This document shows, in pieces, positions 2,386 to 7,097 of a DNA stretch of 9,110 nt; within the stretch, counting starts at the first letter, position 1, and each line of letters opens with the position of its first letter. Source of the stretch: Acidobacteriota bacterium (GTDB lineage Bacteria > Acidobacteriota > Terriglobia > UBA7540). Both the position numbers and the translations under genes were made by a program. The notes below the pieces were generated by a model. That model had not been told where the DNA came from, did not search any database, and saw only the letters and a list, made by a program, of their open reading frames with translations. The stretch lies in the NCBI GenBank assembly GCA_003165615.1, contig PLWR01000455.1, positions 2,018 to 11,127 of the forward strand, in the 5' to 3' direction.

Positions 2386-3351
2386 TCATTCCTGCGCCGG
2401 CGTAATCACTATGTTCCGGAAAGCCACCCGTCCCTCCTCGCTACCCTGAAGGTAAATAGGCCCCGGCAACTCTTCGTGGCTGTCGAGAGCGCCTCCCGTG
2501 ATTCCGGAGATCGCCTGGTGATCGATGACGGATTGACCATTCTGCACAACCGTAATGGTGCGTCCCACGAAGGTGATATCGAAGCTCTGCCATTCTCCGG
2601 ACTTGCGCGGCAGCTCCGGCGAAGGGGCAAGGAATCCATACACCCCGCCCGTATGGTGACTGGGTGGTTCCTGCATGGAGTCGGTTTCTATCTGCACTTC
2701 ATAGCGGCCCCGCAGATACAGGCCACTATTGGATTGGGGGCCACAGTTGAACTCCAGATGTATTTTGAAATCCTCAAACGTGGAAGTGGTAATGATCTCT
2801 GCCCCCTTTCCGTTGCCAACCAGCGTGCCGCCTTCAACCTTCCAATTGCCTGCCCGCCCTGGATCACTAAACCTCCAGCCGGTGAAATCCTTGCCCTTGA
2901 ACAAATTGACGGGCTTGCCTTATTTCGGGGCGACTTTCCGCTTCAGGGAGGGGGCTCGATGGCCGATCCAATACCAGGAAACTGCGCCGGGGCTGATGGT
3001 TGTTCCCACAAGCTGGCCACCGACCAACTTCCCTTATGAACACCGTATCATCACTAAAACCTTCGTCTCATTTGGGTGAGAGAAATTCGATCTCCCCTTC
3101 CTTGATTTCGACCCTCGCCAGCGGGGTCGCATAGTCCGAAACCCCTACCATCACCACCTTGGGCTTGGCCTCTTCCTCCGAGATCTCGATCCAAGAGGGA
3201 AGCTCCCGCGACGGGGTTCTGTGCTCAAATCCCAGTGCCCCAGGAACGGCTTAATCCCGACAGATGCACTGAAGAAGGAACCTGCTTGGAAGTTCTGACT
3301 ACCGGAATATGCCTCAGGAGACAACAGCACAGCTAAAACGCAACCGAATAT
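2386..3351 (-). pseudogene. DUF1080 (3-keto-disaccharide hydrolase-type) secreted protein, decayed
   Basis: Joining frames gives a protein of about 320 residues. It starts with a signal-peptide-like stretch (GCVLAVLLS), then an N-terminal domain (SVGIKPFLGHWDLSTE, PSWIEISEEEAKPKVV, YATPLARVEIKEGE, GKLVGGQLVG, WYWIGHRAPSLKRKVAPK) and a C-terminal DUF1080 jelly-roll domain (LFKGKDFTGW, NWKVEGGTLVGNGKG, SNSGLYLRGRYEVQIE, SGEWQSFDITFVGRTITVV, GPIYLQGSEEGRVAFRNI). Members of this family have been linked to hydrolysis of 3-keto-glycosides. Lesions seen: a frameshift near 3205-3225, TGA at 3070-3068, a compensating frameshift near 3034-3038 (one extra base in ttcataaggg), and TAA at 2922-2920, where the family usually has Trp before GKP. 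The start is also poor: GAAGGAGGT precedes ATA (3351-3349) with no normal start codon nearby, perhaps a mutated ATG. The 172-codon frame 2386-2904 remains open but lacks the signal peptide and N-terminal domain. It lies between the two EamA pairs. Confidence 0.8.
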
Positions 3352-3412
3352 ACCTCCTTCGACCTATCATCTAATCCCCCTTGAGTAAGAAGATAAAACC
3401 ATACACTGCCAG

Positions 3413-3844
3413 CTATGACGCCGAACCTTCTGTCGACAGCAGCACCACGGCAATCAATGCACAGACGATGCCGACTCCCTGGAGGGCGGTAACAGATTCC
3501 TGCAGAACGAAGGGGGCGAGGAAGACCACGACAAGGGGATAAAGCGCCGTGAAAGGCGCCACGATGGAAGCCTTCCCGCCAGTCTTCATCGCCACCAGCA
3601 ATGCCCACGCTCCTAAAGCGTTAAAGACCCCGCCGAGAAAGGCCCATCCCAATGCATGAGCCGAATACGTGAAGAGTTTTCTTCCTGGGTAAAGCCATGG
3701 CAGGAGGATGAATAACCCGACGGCCAACCAAACTAGCGCCCACTCCGCAGAGAGATGGTTTGTGGAAAGCTTCTGAAGCAAGCCGACAATGCCCCACGCA
3801 AGTAAAGTGACAAGGGCAAACCAGAACCAGGGAGGCAAGTGCAT
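3413..3844 (-). CDS. EamA/DMT family half-size transporter subunit (copy 2, second gene)
   Basis: An intact 143-residue inner-membrane protein made of one EamA domain, with hydrophobic segments at residues about 5-23 (PWFWFALVTLLAWGIVGLL), 35-50, 63-86 (HALGWAFLGGVFNALGAWAL), 97-113 (APFTALYPLVVVFLAPF) and 120-136. It pairs with the gene just upstream (3856-4293). The gap between them is 11 bp, and a weak AGGA overlapping the upstream stop serves as ribosome binding site, so translation is probably coupled. Both halves share a WFW...WG...L.KL signature at the N-terminus, which suggests an old internal duplication split into two genes. The expected role is one half of a heterodimeric metabolite transporter. 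The substrate cannot be read from the sequence. The first 49 residues are closely matched by the truncated gene at 1675-1836. Confidence 0.85.
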   Translation of the reverse strand: MHLPPWFWFALVTLLAWGIVGLLQKLSTNHLSAEWALVWLAVGLFILLPWLYPGRKLFTYSAHALGWAFLGGVFNALGAWALLVAMKTGGKASIVAPFTALYPLVVVFLAPFVLQESVTALQGVGIVCALIAVVLLSTEGSAS

Positions 3845-3855
3845 AAAGTCCGTTC

Positions 3856-4293
3856 CTACAGCGAGAAGATGATGATGGCCACCACGGCAAATCCCAGACC
3901 CCCGACTTGGAGCCAGGTTAGCCGTTCCCGCAGAACCAGGATTGCAAGAACGACGGTAATGAGCGGATAAAGTGCCGTGGCAGCGGTAATGACCGAGGTG
4001 TTTCCCCCAGTCCGGTAGGCGGCAAAGAGGGCGAGGCCACCGATACCGGCCAGAACGCCATTGCCGAGGCTACAAGCGATTCCCTTCATGCTTTTTTCGA
4101 ACTTCACGGGCTTGAGGATAAGAACAAGAAGCGCCACCGGAATGAATCCGAATGCGAAGAGAAATTGCATCGCGCTGGCGGGGATCTCATCGGAACCCAG
4201 CTTCGAAAATAGCACCCATGCTCCCCAACAGAGGACACAAATTACGGAGTACCAGAACCACTTAGCCTTAGGCGCCTCAGGCATTCCCATCAT
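3856..4293 (-). CDS. EamA/DMT family half-size transporter subunit (copy 2, first gene)
   Basis: An intact single-EamA-domain membrane protein of about 145 residues: KWFWYSVICVLCWGAWVLFS, a second segment QFLFAFGFIPVALLVLIL, a middle segment NGVLAGIGGLALFAAY, then ITAATALYPLITVVLAILVL, RERLT and a last helix ending AIIIFSL. The open frame extends upstream to 4401, but I choose ATG at 4293 (or ATG 4290, the next codon) because AGGAG lies four or seven bases before it and homology with the other copy begins here. The start overlaps the end of the SIS isomerase gene by 17 bp (isomerase stop at 4279-4277), so the two genes are one operon and probably translationally coupled. This ties transport to the isomerase: the transported compound may be the isomerase's substrate or precursor (inference). 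Confidence 0.87.
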   Translation of the reverse strand: MMGMPEAPKAKWFWYSVICVLCWGAWVLFSKLGSDEIPASAMQFLFAFGFIPVALLVLILKPVKFEKSMKGIACSLGNGVLAGIGGLALFAAYRTGGNTSVITAATALYPLITVVLAILVLRERLTWLQVGGLGFAVVAIIIFSL

Positions 4294-5350
4294 GCAACTC
4301 CTGCTTGTGCAACAGCCCGGACTCGTCTTCAACAATGTAGGAACAAAGACGAAAAGAATCGCAATCCACCCCCGAAAGCCACGCCAAATGTTCCGCCGCA
4401 AGCTGTGCCGGGATGATGTCGATCAGGAACTGCCACTCAGGCGGAATATGAGGAAGCTGGAATACCAAGTCTCCGCCCTGATCAGGCAAATCTTGGCCGA
4501 TGAGCATGACGCAAGCGCCCAATTCCCTCAGGTCCCGGGCTAGGGCCAAGTCTTGCTCGCGCATATGTTGACCGTCAATCCACAGGCCGAAACGCACGTT
4601 TTTAGCAACGATCTCTTGTGGTCCATGCCGAAAGCTGCCGGTTCCCAACGCCGTCGCCGGCGACTTGACCCCTTCCTCCCAGAGCAGCCGAGCTTCATGA
4701 CAACTGCCTAGGCTGGTACTGCGTGCGAGGAAGTAATAAACCGAATGGGCCTCAAGCCAAGACGAATTAGCGATCTGTTCCTGCCAGGCTGGCAAGGCCC
4801 GGGCGGTGTCGCTGACAGCACGCGCGAGCGAGGCTGCCAAAGAGACGTTAAAGGAACCAACAACGCCACTCGCCAGAGCGCTGGCGGCAAGGGAAAGTGT
4901 GGAATACGTATTGACAGAGATTCCATGGTCCAAACTGACAGGGATCACAAGCGGGACTTGCGCCTCGTGAGCGAGTGGGCCATCCCCGGAATTGGTCACG
5001 CCGATCACCTGTGCCCTACCCTTGCGAGCTTTCGGAAGCAAATTGACGACTTCCGCACTGCGGCCGGTCCGGGAAATAATGATAGTCACCGAATCCTTGG
5101 GAAGCGTGTCAAAATGCAGCAAGTCGGCGGCATCGCGAATATATACGGGAAAGCCGCCGCGGTGGAATAGCGACCCGGCGTTTAGTGCGGCGTGCCAACT
5201 GCTGCCAATTCCCGTCAAATACACATGGCGGGCATTCCGGACTGCCTCCGCCGCCTCATCAAGTGGGGAACGAGCGCCACCGCAAAGAAAATCGATCGCC
5301 CCTCGCAGTTCATCAGATTGGCGGAGAATATCGTGCAACAAATGGGTCAT
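4277..5350 (-). CDS. Two-domain SIS sugar-phosphate isomerase (GlmS C-domain/AgaS-like)
   Basis: An intact 357-residue cytoplasmic protein with two SIS (sugar isomerase) domains, about residues 40-170 and 198-335, and no glutaminase domain. Visible motifs: TGIGSSWHA (46-54, phosphosugar-binding loop), SRTGRSAE (93-100, equivalent to the SQSGET loop of GlmS), EEGVKSPATA (225-234) and FRHGP (240-244, the conserved HGP of aldose/ketose isomerases and deaminases). GlmS carries a catalytic Lys near its C-terminus in a PRNLAK stretch. Here the matching stretch reads GVDCDSFRLCSYIVEDE without Lys, so glucosamine-6-phosphate synthesis is unlikely and a catabolic isomerase or deaminase/deglycase role is more plausible. 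The ATG at 5350 is the only early start in frame, since a TGA lies about 10 codons upstream; its own ribosome binding site is weak (AAGG two bases away). It is preceded by an ATGA-overlapping leader ORF and followed, with overlap, by the EamA genes. Confidence 0.85.
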   Translation of the reverse strand: MTHLLHDILRQSDELRGAIDFLCGGARSPLDEAAEAVRNARHVYLTGIGSSWHAALNAGSLFHRGGFPVYIRDAADLLHFDTLPKDSVTIIISRTGRSAEVVNLLPKARKGRAQVIGVTNSGDGPLAHEAQVPLVIPVSLDHGISVNTYSTLSLAASALASGVVGSFNVSLAASLARAVSDTARALPAWQEQIANSSWLEAHSVYYFLARSTSLGSCHEARLLWEEGVKSPATALGTGSFRHGPQEIVAKNVRFGLWIDGQHMREQDLALARDLRELGACVMLIGQDLPDQGGDLVFQLPHIPPEWQFLIDIIPAQLAAEHLAWLSGVDCDSFRLCSYIVEDESGLLHKQELHDGNA

Positions 5351-5469: not shown

Positions 5470-5496
5470 TGCAATCGATTTCAGCAATCGATTGCA
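5470..5496 (-). promoter_or_regulatory. Tandem LacI-family-type operators
   Basis: Two overlapping 14-bp sites lie at the predicted transcription start. Site 1 (5470-5483), tgcaatcgatttca, matches the general LacI/GalR-family pattern TGNAANCGNTTNCA at every fixed position. Site 2 (5483-5496), agcaatcgattgca, matches at all but the first base. Their centres are 13 bp apart. Placement just after the -10 box predicts repression by steric block, relieved by a sugar ligand. The cognate regulator is not encoded in this window. Confidence 0.6.
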
Positions 5497-5660: not shown

Positions 5661-6287
5661 CACGTCGGTTTTGTCGATGGAACTGAGAACCCGAGGGGCT
5701 AGGCGGCGATTGACGCCGTGCTTATTGGCCAGGAGGATGCCGCATTCGCCGGCGGCCGTTACGTCATCGTGCAGAAATGTCTTCACGACCTCGACGGATG
5801 GAATGCGCTATCCACGGAGGCGCCGGAACGAATCATCGGCCGCACCAAACTCGCGAACATTGAATTGGACGATTCCATAAAGCCCACCTCAGCGCACAAA
5901 GCGCTCACAACGATTGTCGAGGACGGAAAAGAGATCAAAATTCTGCGTGACAACATGCCCTTCGGCCGGCCCGGATACGCTGAATTTGGCACCTATTTCA
6001 TTGGCGACAGCCGTTCGTCGCGCACCACCGAGGAGAGGCTCGAGAACATGCTTATTGGCCCGCCGCCTGGAAACTATGACCGGCTGTTTGACTTCAGCCA
6101 CGCCGTCACTGGAAGCCTGTTCTTCGTGCCGACGGCCACATTTTTGGAGACCATCACCGAATACCCACCGGCCATTGCGGCGCGTTCCACCGCGTCGGCG
6201 ACGGTTGAACCCCCTCCATCCAGCCATTCGGAGAACGATGGTTCGCTCGGAATCGGTTCACTCAAAGGAGATATCACCCATGAATAA
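5661..6287 (+). pseudogene. DyP-type peroxidase, encapsulin cargo, 5'-truncated with nonsense codon
   Basis: This is the C-terminal part of a dye-decolourising heme peroxidase. The translation shows GFVDGTENP (5667-5693, the catalytic-Asp GxxDGTENP signature), then TAG at 5700-5702 inside the frame. After it come AAIDAVLIGQEDAAFAGGRY, VIVQKCLHDLDGWNAL, KPTSAHKAL with the expected proximal heme His (codon 5895-5897), RDNMPFG with the distal Arg (5946-5948) and Asn, EFGTYFIGDSR, DRLFDFSHAVTGSLFFVP, and finally the encapsulin cargo-loading peptide DGSLGIGSLKG (6237-6269). Family members have about 300-350 residues; the first 130-150 are missing, and upstream DNA belongs to the divergent isomerase promoter. 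The frame is closed by TGA 5' of 5661. The stop (6285-6287) overlaps the encapsulin start by eight bases. Similarity to mycobacterial and actinobacterial encapsulated DyPs is from memory of the family. Confidence 0.88.
6264..6270 (+). promoter_or_regulatory. Encapsulin ribosome binding site inside the cargo-loading peptide codons
   Basis: AAAGGAG sits nine bases before the encapsulin ATG (6280). It is formed by the last Leu-Lys-Gly-Asp codons of the peroxidase, so the cargo-targeting tail and the shell's translation signal are the same DNA. With the stop/start overlap, this implies translational coupling of cargo and shell in the ancestral operon. Confidence 0.75.
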
Positions 6288-7097
6288 TCTGCATCGCAAG
6301 CTTGCGCCCATCTCCGACGGGGCGTGGGCGCAGATTGAAGAGGAAACATTGCGCACGCTCAAGCGCTACCTCGCCGGGCGGCGCGTCGTCGACGTGAAGG
6401 GGCCGGCGGGCACAGGTCTTTCCGCCGTCGGCACCTGCCATCTGAAGGCCATTGAGGCCCTGAAAGACAGCACTATCGCCAGACAGCGCGAGGTGAAGCC
6501 GCCGGTCGAGCTGCGCGTTCCGTTCGAGATGGACCGGCAGGCGATCGACGACGTTGATCGGGGCGCAAACGACTCGGACTGGCAACCGGCGAAGGACGCC
6601 GCGCGCCAAATTGCTTTTGCCGAGGACGGCGCCGTGTTCGAGAGCTATGCCGAGGCCGGCATCGGGGACATACGCCGGGGGACCATTAATCCGCCGATGA
6701 CGCTTCCCGCCGACGTCCGTGAGTAACCGGAAGCCATTGCCCAGGGCTTGAGCCGATTGCGGCTGGTCGGCATCAACGGTCCCTACGCCGTTCTGCTCGG
6801 CGCCGATGCCTACACCGCGCTTCCCCAGACCGGCGACCATGGATACCCCATGCTGGAGCACGTCAAGCGGCTCGTCAACGATAAGATCATCTGGGCGCCC
6901 GCCATCGCCGGGGCTTTCGTGCTGACGCCCGTGGCGGCGACTTCGACCTTCACATTGGCCAGGACGTTTCCATGGGCTATTCCAGCCACACCGACGCCAT
7001 TGTTCGCCTGTATCTGCGGGAGGCCTTTACCTTCCTGCTGCTCACCGCCGAAGCCGCCGTCGGTCTCGCCCCTCCCGCGAAGATGCGGATGGCATGA
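6280..7097 (+). pseudogene. Family 1 encapsulin shell protein (linocin M18-like), nonsense plus frameshift
   Basis: Corrected for two lesions this is a complete HK97-fold encapsulin of about 272 residues, the usual size of family 1 shells that form nanocompartments around DyP or ferritin-like cargo. Family landmarks: MNNLHRKLAPISDGAWAQIE, TLKRYLAGRRVVDVKGPAG, VELRVPFEMDRQAIDDVDRG, DSDWQPAKDAARQIAFAEDG, NPPMTLPADVRE, LRLVGINGPYAVLLGADAYT, GYPMLEHVKRLVNDKIIWAP, then in the shifted frame RGGDFDLHIGQDVSMGYSSH, DAIVRLYLREAFTFLLLTAE and AAVGLAPPAKMRMA before TGA 7095-7097. Lesion 1: TAA at 6724-6726, where family members usually have Tyr before PEA. Lesion 2: loss of one base near 6925-6931, between FVLT and RGGD. 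As read, translation gives 148 residues, lacking the C-terminal half of the fold and most of the A-domain, so no shell should form. Confidence 0.92.

Follow-up and report, generated by a model that had tools for sequence, protein, structure and literature searches.

The window (the whole stretch of 9,110 nucleotides that was analysed) very probably holds a DyP-encapsulin operon of the standard type that has recently been inactivated, judging from its sequence. In the working system, as published for relatives, DyP hexamers dock via a C-terminal peptide inside the encapsulin shell, and peroxide is reduced by the DyP. The initial annotation had called this region a fossil operon, which is supported by four lesions across the two genes (5' truncation at 5665-5667, TAG at 5700, TAA at 6724 and a frameshift at 6927-6930) and by lost constraint, seen both in dN/dS and in broken invariant columns.

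Profile searches, proposed earlier as a check, matched the relic pieces of both genes (see Table 1 for coordinates). Dyp_perox_C is the Pfam match of 5718-6284 (3e-40), and Linocin_M18 (PF04454) matches three pieces of the shell, at 1.1e-46 (profile 1-147), 1.1e-19 (150-219) and 1.6e-05 (225-253). Aligned with intact relatives, 5664-6284 corresponds to DyP residues 158-366 of 366 with one internal stop, the in-frame TAG, and DyP residues before 158 have no match anywhere in the window at E 0.01. The first motif of the relic is GFVDGTENP, from 5667, and the longest ORF left in its frame is one of 189 aa (5718-6287, GTG start). The alignment and translation thus bear out the annotated peroxidase without its N-terminal half and with a stop. 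For the shell, residues 1-216 are found at 6280-6927 in frame 1 with one stop, the in-frame TAA, and residues 218-268 at 6930-7082 in frame 3; both the TAA and the frameshift annotated near 6928 were therefore recovered. A programmed frameshift was considered here and rejected, since none of the relatives displayed in the alignment shifts frame at this position. Cargo and shell are adjacent and overlapping in the order of encapsulated DyP systems, again as annotated. When compared with the features of a Family 1 DyP-encapsulin operon, the window has Linocin_M18 (HK97-type) shell sequence in three pieces spanning profile 1-253, a DyP cargo gene directly 5' of the shell gene (C-terminal half only) and a cargo targeting tail, DGSLGIGSLKGD, which is in frame and unbroken; the core cargo consensus is printed in a passage of PMC6934571 as DGSLGTIGSLKGE. 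Complete cargo and shell reading frames are lacking, given the truncation, two stops and one shift, and we take the operon to be a relic of a Family 1 member, not a working one.

Table 1. Features of the relic operon, in window positions.
Feature	Position	Strand	Details
Junction where homology to DyP operons begins on the left	5665..5667	+	blastn edges against relatives
DyP peroxidase relic, C-terminal half, residues ~158-366	5667..6287	+	in-frame TAG at 5700, stop at 6285-6287
DyP C-terminal end and encapsulin targeting peptide (ENDGSLGIGSLKGDITHE), unbroken	6231..6284	+	translation
Shell start overlapping cargo stop by 8 nt	6280..6287	+	cargo gene first
Family 1 encapsulin shell relic	6280..7097	+	TAA at 6724-6726, frameshift between 6927 and 6930, terminal TGA at 7095-7097

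Further support for inactivation is provided by the loss of constraint. Invariant columns number 73 in DyP and 82 in the shell among 53 intact rows (12 of 65 loci were omitted as broken, truncated where a contig ends, gapped or lacking a DyP). Of these, the relic breaks 7 in DyP, a Tyr to Cys change at alignment column 196 among them, and 7 in the shell; leave-one-out maxima among the intact rows were 1 (DyP) and 5 (shell), and none breaks as many as the relic. A tree built from 14 rows places the window copy beside a clade of seven operon copies (support 98) that includes L044 (truncated DyP) and L043 (NN gap upstream of the compared stretch). The proposed dN/dS check was run as a three-point estimate from Nei-Gojobori distances with six sisters and six outgroups, and the relic branch is raised over the sister tips. 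Branch dN/dS was 0.243 (DyP), 0.225 (shell) and 0.234 (the two together), compared with 0.077-0.116 in the six sister tips (0.081-0.122 measured from the window's node). For both genes the bootstrap interval, from 100 resamples of a smaller set of three sisters and two outgroups, was 0.21-0.56; it was wide for each gene (DyP alone 0.17-1.02, shell alone 0.19-0.66). Statistically, both genes show relaxed constraint relative to intact relatives, which is how a pseudogene would be recognized. With 0.10 taken as normal and 1 as neutral, about 15% of the window branch would be neutral (12-51% across the bootstrap interval), and dS from the window copy to its nearest relatives is 0.59-0.82. Because branch dN/dS is 0.23 as opposed to 0.08-0.12 in the six sister tips, the inactivation appears recent relative to the divergence of these nearest relatives, and the claim of recent inactivation holds on this relative scale.

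The left edge of the relic is sharp, since blastn alignments start at 5665 or 5667 in all fetched relatives with a DyP reaching that far (loci L010-L062). On the right, alignments to relatives of the operon stop between 7030 and 7103, the exceptions being L058, L013/L062 and L061, where the relative has a contig end or gap, and L059, which stops at 6156. The nearest genes on the two sides are a divergent SIS gene, whose upstream region forms the DNA left of the junction, and a GH39-like gene. All nine loci found for the SIS-domain protein have acidobacterial names (best 67%), the GH39-like protein is closest to those of genomes G370 and G236 (83%), and the window reads as acidobacterial DNA. 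No DyP or shell gene was found beside GH39-like relatives in the eight loci examined; in G370 the GH39-like relative and a whole operon are on separate contigs (C418 and C80). The GH39-like protein had no match in plasmid records, and a search of the window for tRNAs and Rfam families found none.

In the history that we favour, a standard operon was inactivated in this lineage, where the first half of the DyP gene is missing and unrelated DNA joins at about codon 158, the remaining DyP has a stop, the shell gene has a stop and a frameshift, and both genes statistically show relaxed constraint. Alternatively, the copy may have been dead on arrival, as a partial duplicate or transferred fragment without the DyP 5' half that came to lie by the SIS gene with a whole operon working elsewhere in the same genome; it too would end as a relic. 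This is possible but rather unlikely. The sharp left edge points to it, as do the different neighbourhoods of the operon in nearly all close relatives and the presence of two operon copies in G255 (the second with an NN gap) and two shells in G035, but the lost constraint in both genes would need time after arrival. Because the relative G255 has two operon copies, a second whole copy in the host of the window is possible, and the annotated loss of a whole nanocompartment is only a candidate reading for the organism.

A further alternative is an error of sequencing or assembly in a working operon. The 148-aa shell ORF ending at the TAA heads cluster P0243 (4 sequences, 17 contigs) and the 189-aa DyP ORF that follows the stop corresponds to cluster P0123 (6 sequences, 4 contigs), although these are 90%-identity clusters and not each counted contig is known to have the stop. 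Since the stopped shell ORF clusters on 17 contigs and the DyP fragment ORF on 4, sequencing error or misassembly appears unlikely as the source of the lesions. Apparent breaks in two relatives (L043 and L061) do fall at NN gaps, yet no N characters occur in the stretch and 14 invariant columns are broken in the relic, and it is highly improbable that a working operon was misread. Retention of the 189-aa C-terminal DyP ORF with its tail, or of the N-terminal shell piece, as a short protein in use is scarcely credible either: the targeting tail is unbroken and C-terminal DyP proteins of 172-254 aa occur among the best 120 listed (some maybe through gene callers' choice of start site), but branch dN/dS is raised alike in DyP (0.24) and shell (0.23), 7 invariant DyP columns are broken, including the Tyr to Cys at column 196, and a DyP lacking the N-terminal domain (PF04261) would not be expected to fold as a peroxidase.

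To place the relic among its relatives we drew 397 genomes from the order (Terriglobales) and searched them for the shell at 1e-10. Matches were found in 63 genomes, of which all 65 loci were read, and the close relatives have whole operons, which the annotation had proposed to look for. The shell is broken in 4 of the 65 loci, all at one syntenic site, in G038, G059, G025 and G039. G038 has a full-length DyP and a shell with a single frame change near residue 150; a stop flagged in its second shell piece falls in the overlap before the frame change, and the shift alone counts. G059 retains pieces whose DNA is 86-95% identical to that of G038, and its shell has a stop at residue 255. All that remains in G025 and G039 is the last 98-100 shell residues and a segment from close to the beginning of the G038 query, with a gap whose right end is identical (query 1740) and whose left end is nearly so (109 and 115), and G039 has a further frame change at shell residue 218. 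The extent of decay at this single site differs among the four genomes. Elsewhere, the shell of G334 is whole but follows a DyP in which everything ahead of residue 190 is missing, and no N lies close by. When 250 genomes of the family were searched for DyP, 51 gave matches, 30 of them at 63-100% identity and most others being distant DyPs. This search added G404 (L097, 1163-1937), where a whole DyP is followed by a shell with a frame change at residue 130 on a 4.8-kb contig whose sole N run lies elsewhere (2620-2671), none being at the frame change, and DyP-only fragments in G115 and G207. The copies in G038 and G404 could each be sequencing errors, because each rests on a single shift. Several candidates were dropped: the breaks in L043 (DyP) and L061 (shell), which are at NN gaps; the shells of G300 and G007, which end at contig ends; G130 and G054, flagged with one stop, which have none within residues 1-265; and weak DyP matches in G055 and G388, which were not counted as relics of this operon. 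In G035, the second shell (L183) has no DyP match nearby on its strand, and a complete operon is also present in that genome.

The operon rarely keeps its neighbours. For genes lying up to 8 kb from the operon in nine genomes, 2 of 568 gene-genome comparisons gave a partner close to the operon of another genome; for the surroundings of recA, which was found in 9 of 12 genomes searched, 282 of 768 comparisons among the same nine had a partner. Across 11 genomes the figure for the operon was 4 of 920. By a rule of two shared genes, 64 loci fall into 54 neighbourhoods, a count inflated by short contigs, and the operons occupy different neighbourhoods in nearly all close relatives. DNA common to close relatives mostly stops some tens of nucleotides from the two genes, except between L048 and L049 (as far as 1151 nt beyond the start of the shell) and between L047 and L050 (to about 938). 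Transfer is supported by G126 and G255, because their shell dS is 0.15 and their recA dS 0.55. Against special mobility, no more than 21 of 36 pairs have a shell dS lower than their recA dS, and such mobility is further disfavoured because the GH39-like gene too has no common flanks over the compared DNA in L208 and L209 (two genomes), where it is 92% identical. No transposase was among the 25 of 71 families listed from a scan of 54 of 60 listed neighbour genes, nor in 10 further proteins. An empty-site test with two neighbour genes was uninformative, both belonging to multicopy families. Separately, a close relative's shell finds matches in 63 plasmid records, from Escherichia, Burkholderia, Shinella and others.

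Overall, the operon may be an accessory gene set that is repeatedly gained, relocated and lost in the order, with the window as one loss. We give about even chances to a broader reading in which the Terriglobales DyP-encapsulin operon is a wandering cassette, found in a new place in most genomes, transferred at least on occasion and repeatedly decaying, so that the encapsulated peroxidase would be a temporary trait; the decay cases are the window, G334 and the G038 site, and perhaps G404, G115 and G207. The relics and the graded-decay site in four related genomes would mark where the nanocompartment became dispensable, and matched genome pairs with and without the operon would be usable for testing its role outside pathogens.

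The closest working counterparts are whole operons of the same order. Shells P0002-P0004 are 83-84% identical to the window shell, and the operon DNA of L045, L046, L048 and L050 is 77-80% identical, with the same order, overlap and tail; these copies are open, whereas the window copy is truncated, stopped and shifted. The G038/G059/G025/G039 site (L055, L054, L056, L057) is of the same operon type and decays by frameshift or deletion, but differs from the window copy in neighbours and lesions. Among characterized systems, the Family 1 DyP encapsulin of Klebsiella pneumoniae is matched by the window DyP fragment (PDB 8u4z, 1.1e-62) and by the shell P0002 of a relative (PDB 8u50, 1.7e-104). Passages of PMC10960027 describe a two-gene operon of DyP cargo and shell in K. 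pneumoniae, as in the window, usually with FDH and RpoH partners and between transposases; the window copy, in contrast, is broken and has SIS and GH39-like genes as its nearest genes. Transposases nearly always flank enterobacterial DyP-encapsulin operons according to passages of PMC12140327 and PMC10960027, a passage of PMC8346489 finds the spread of Family 1 operon types to fit frequent horizontal transfer, and one in PMC6934571 mentions an acidobacterial encapsulin and a DyP-encapsulin fusion architecture. Given these passages, operon mobility and acidobacterial encapsulin are already in print. A keyword search of the literature, in the text that it reached, found no account of decayed encapsulin operons, an absence that is not proof. 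The system is of a known kind, and relocation with repeated decay in one order is the modest new part.

Variant proteins were also seen among the matches. P0015 and P0070 are predicted fusions of a DyP C-terminal domain to encapsulin, on contigs of 138 kb and 627 kb; we rejected them as a new fusion architecture, as their linkers, judged from the proteins, look like the tail region out of frame. Among 120 listed shell fragments, 8 are of 201 aa and 8 of 214 aa (P0244, P0254, P0258, P0301 and others), and 14 of these 16 seem to finish in a tail read out of frame; the contigs of some measure 116 kb to 2.3 Mb. A shared break point was rejected for them, since the break varies in 25 proteins read and the length is seemingly set by the next out-of-frame stop.

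Other elements lie in the window outside the relic. Upstream of the SIS gene, two facing half sites of the TGCAATCGATT type follow a TTGACA box at 5470-5496, and GAAACCGGTTTC-type repeats occur at a comparable place in L004 and L006; the half sites look like repressor operators, putatively, and presumably of LacI type. In 7 of 9 relatives the SIS gene has a 3-keto-disaccharide hydrolase gene close by (window 2389-5350; L001, L004-L009), suggesting a kept pair, unlike the flanks of the operon. A gene for an outer-membrane beta-barrel is cut at its 5' end, and there, at 1577-1696, lies a long inverted repeat with 58-nt arms (84% complementary, 4-nt gap) and ends like GAGCCTGTCGGAG; it is matched in 6 of 200 genomes, at four places each in G113 and G119, and looks like a MITE. 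By this repeat, 1694-1832 is 71% identical to 3705-3843, part of an EamA transporter gene 2 kb off, and looks like a partly deleted duplicate.
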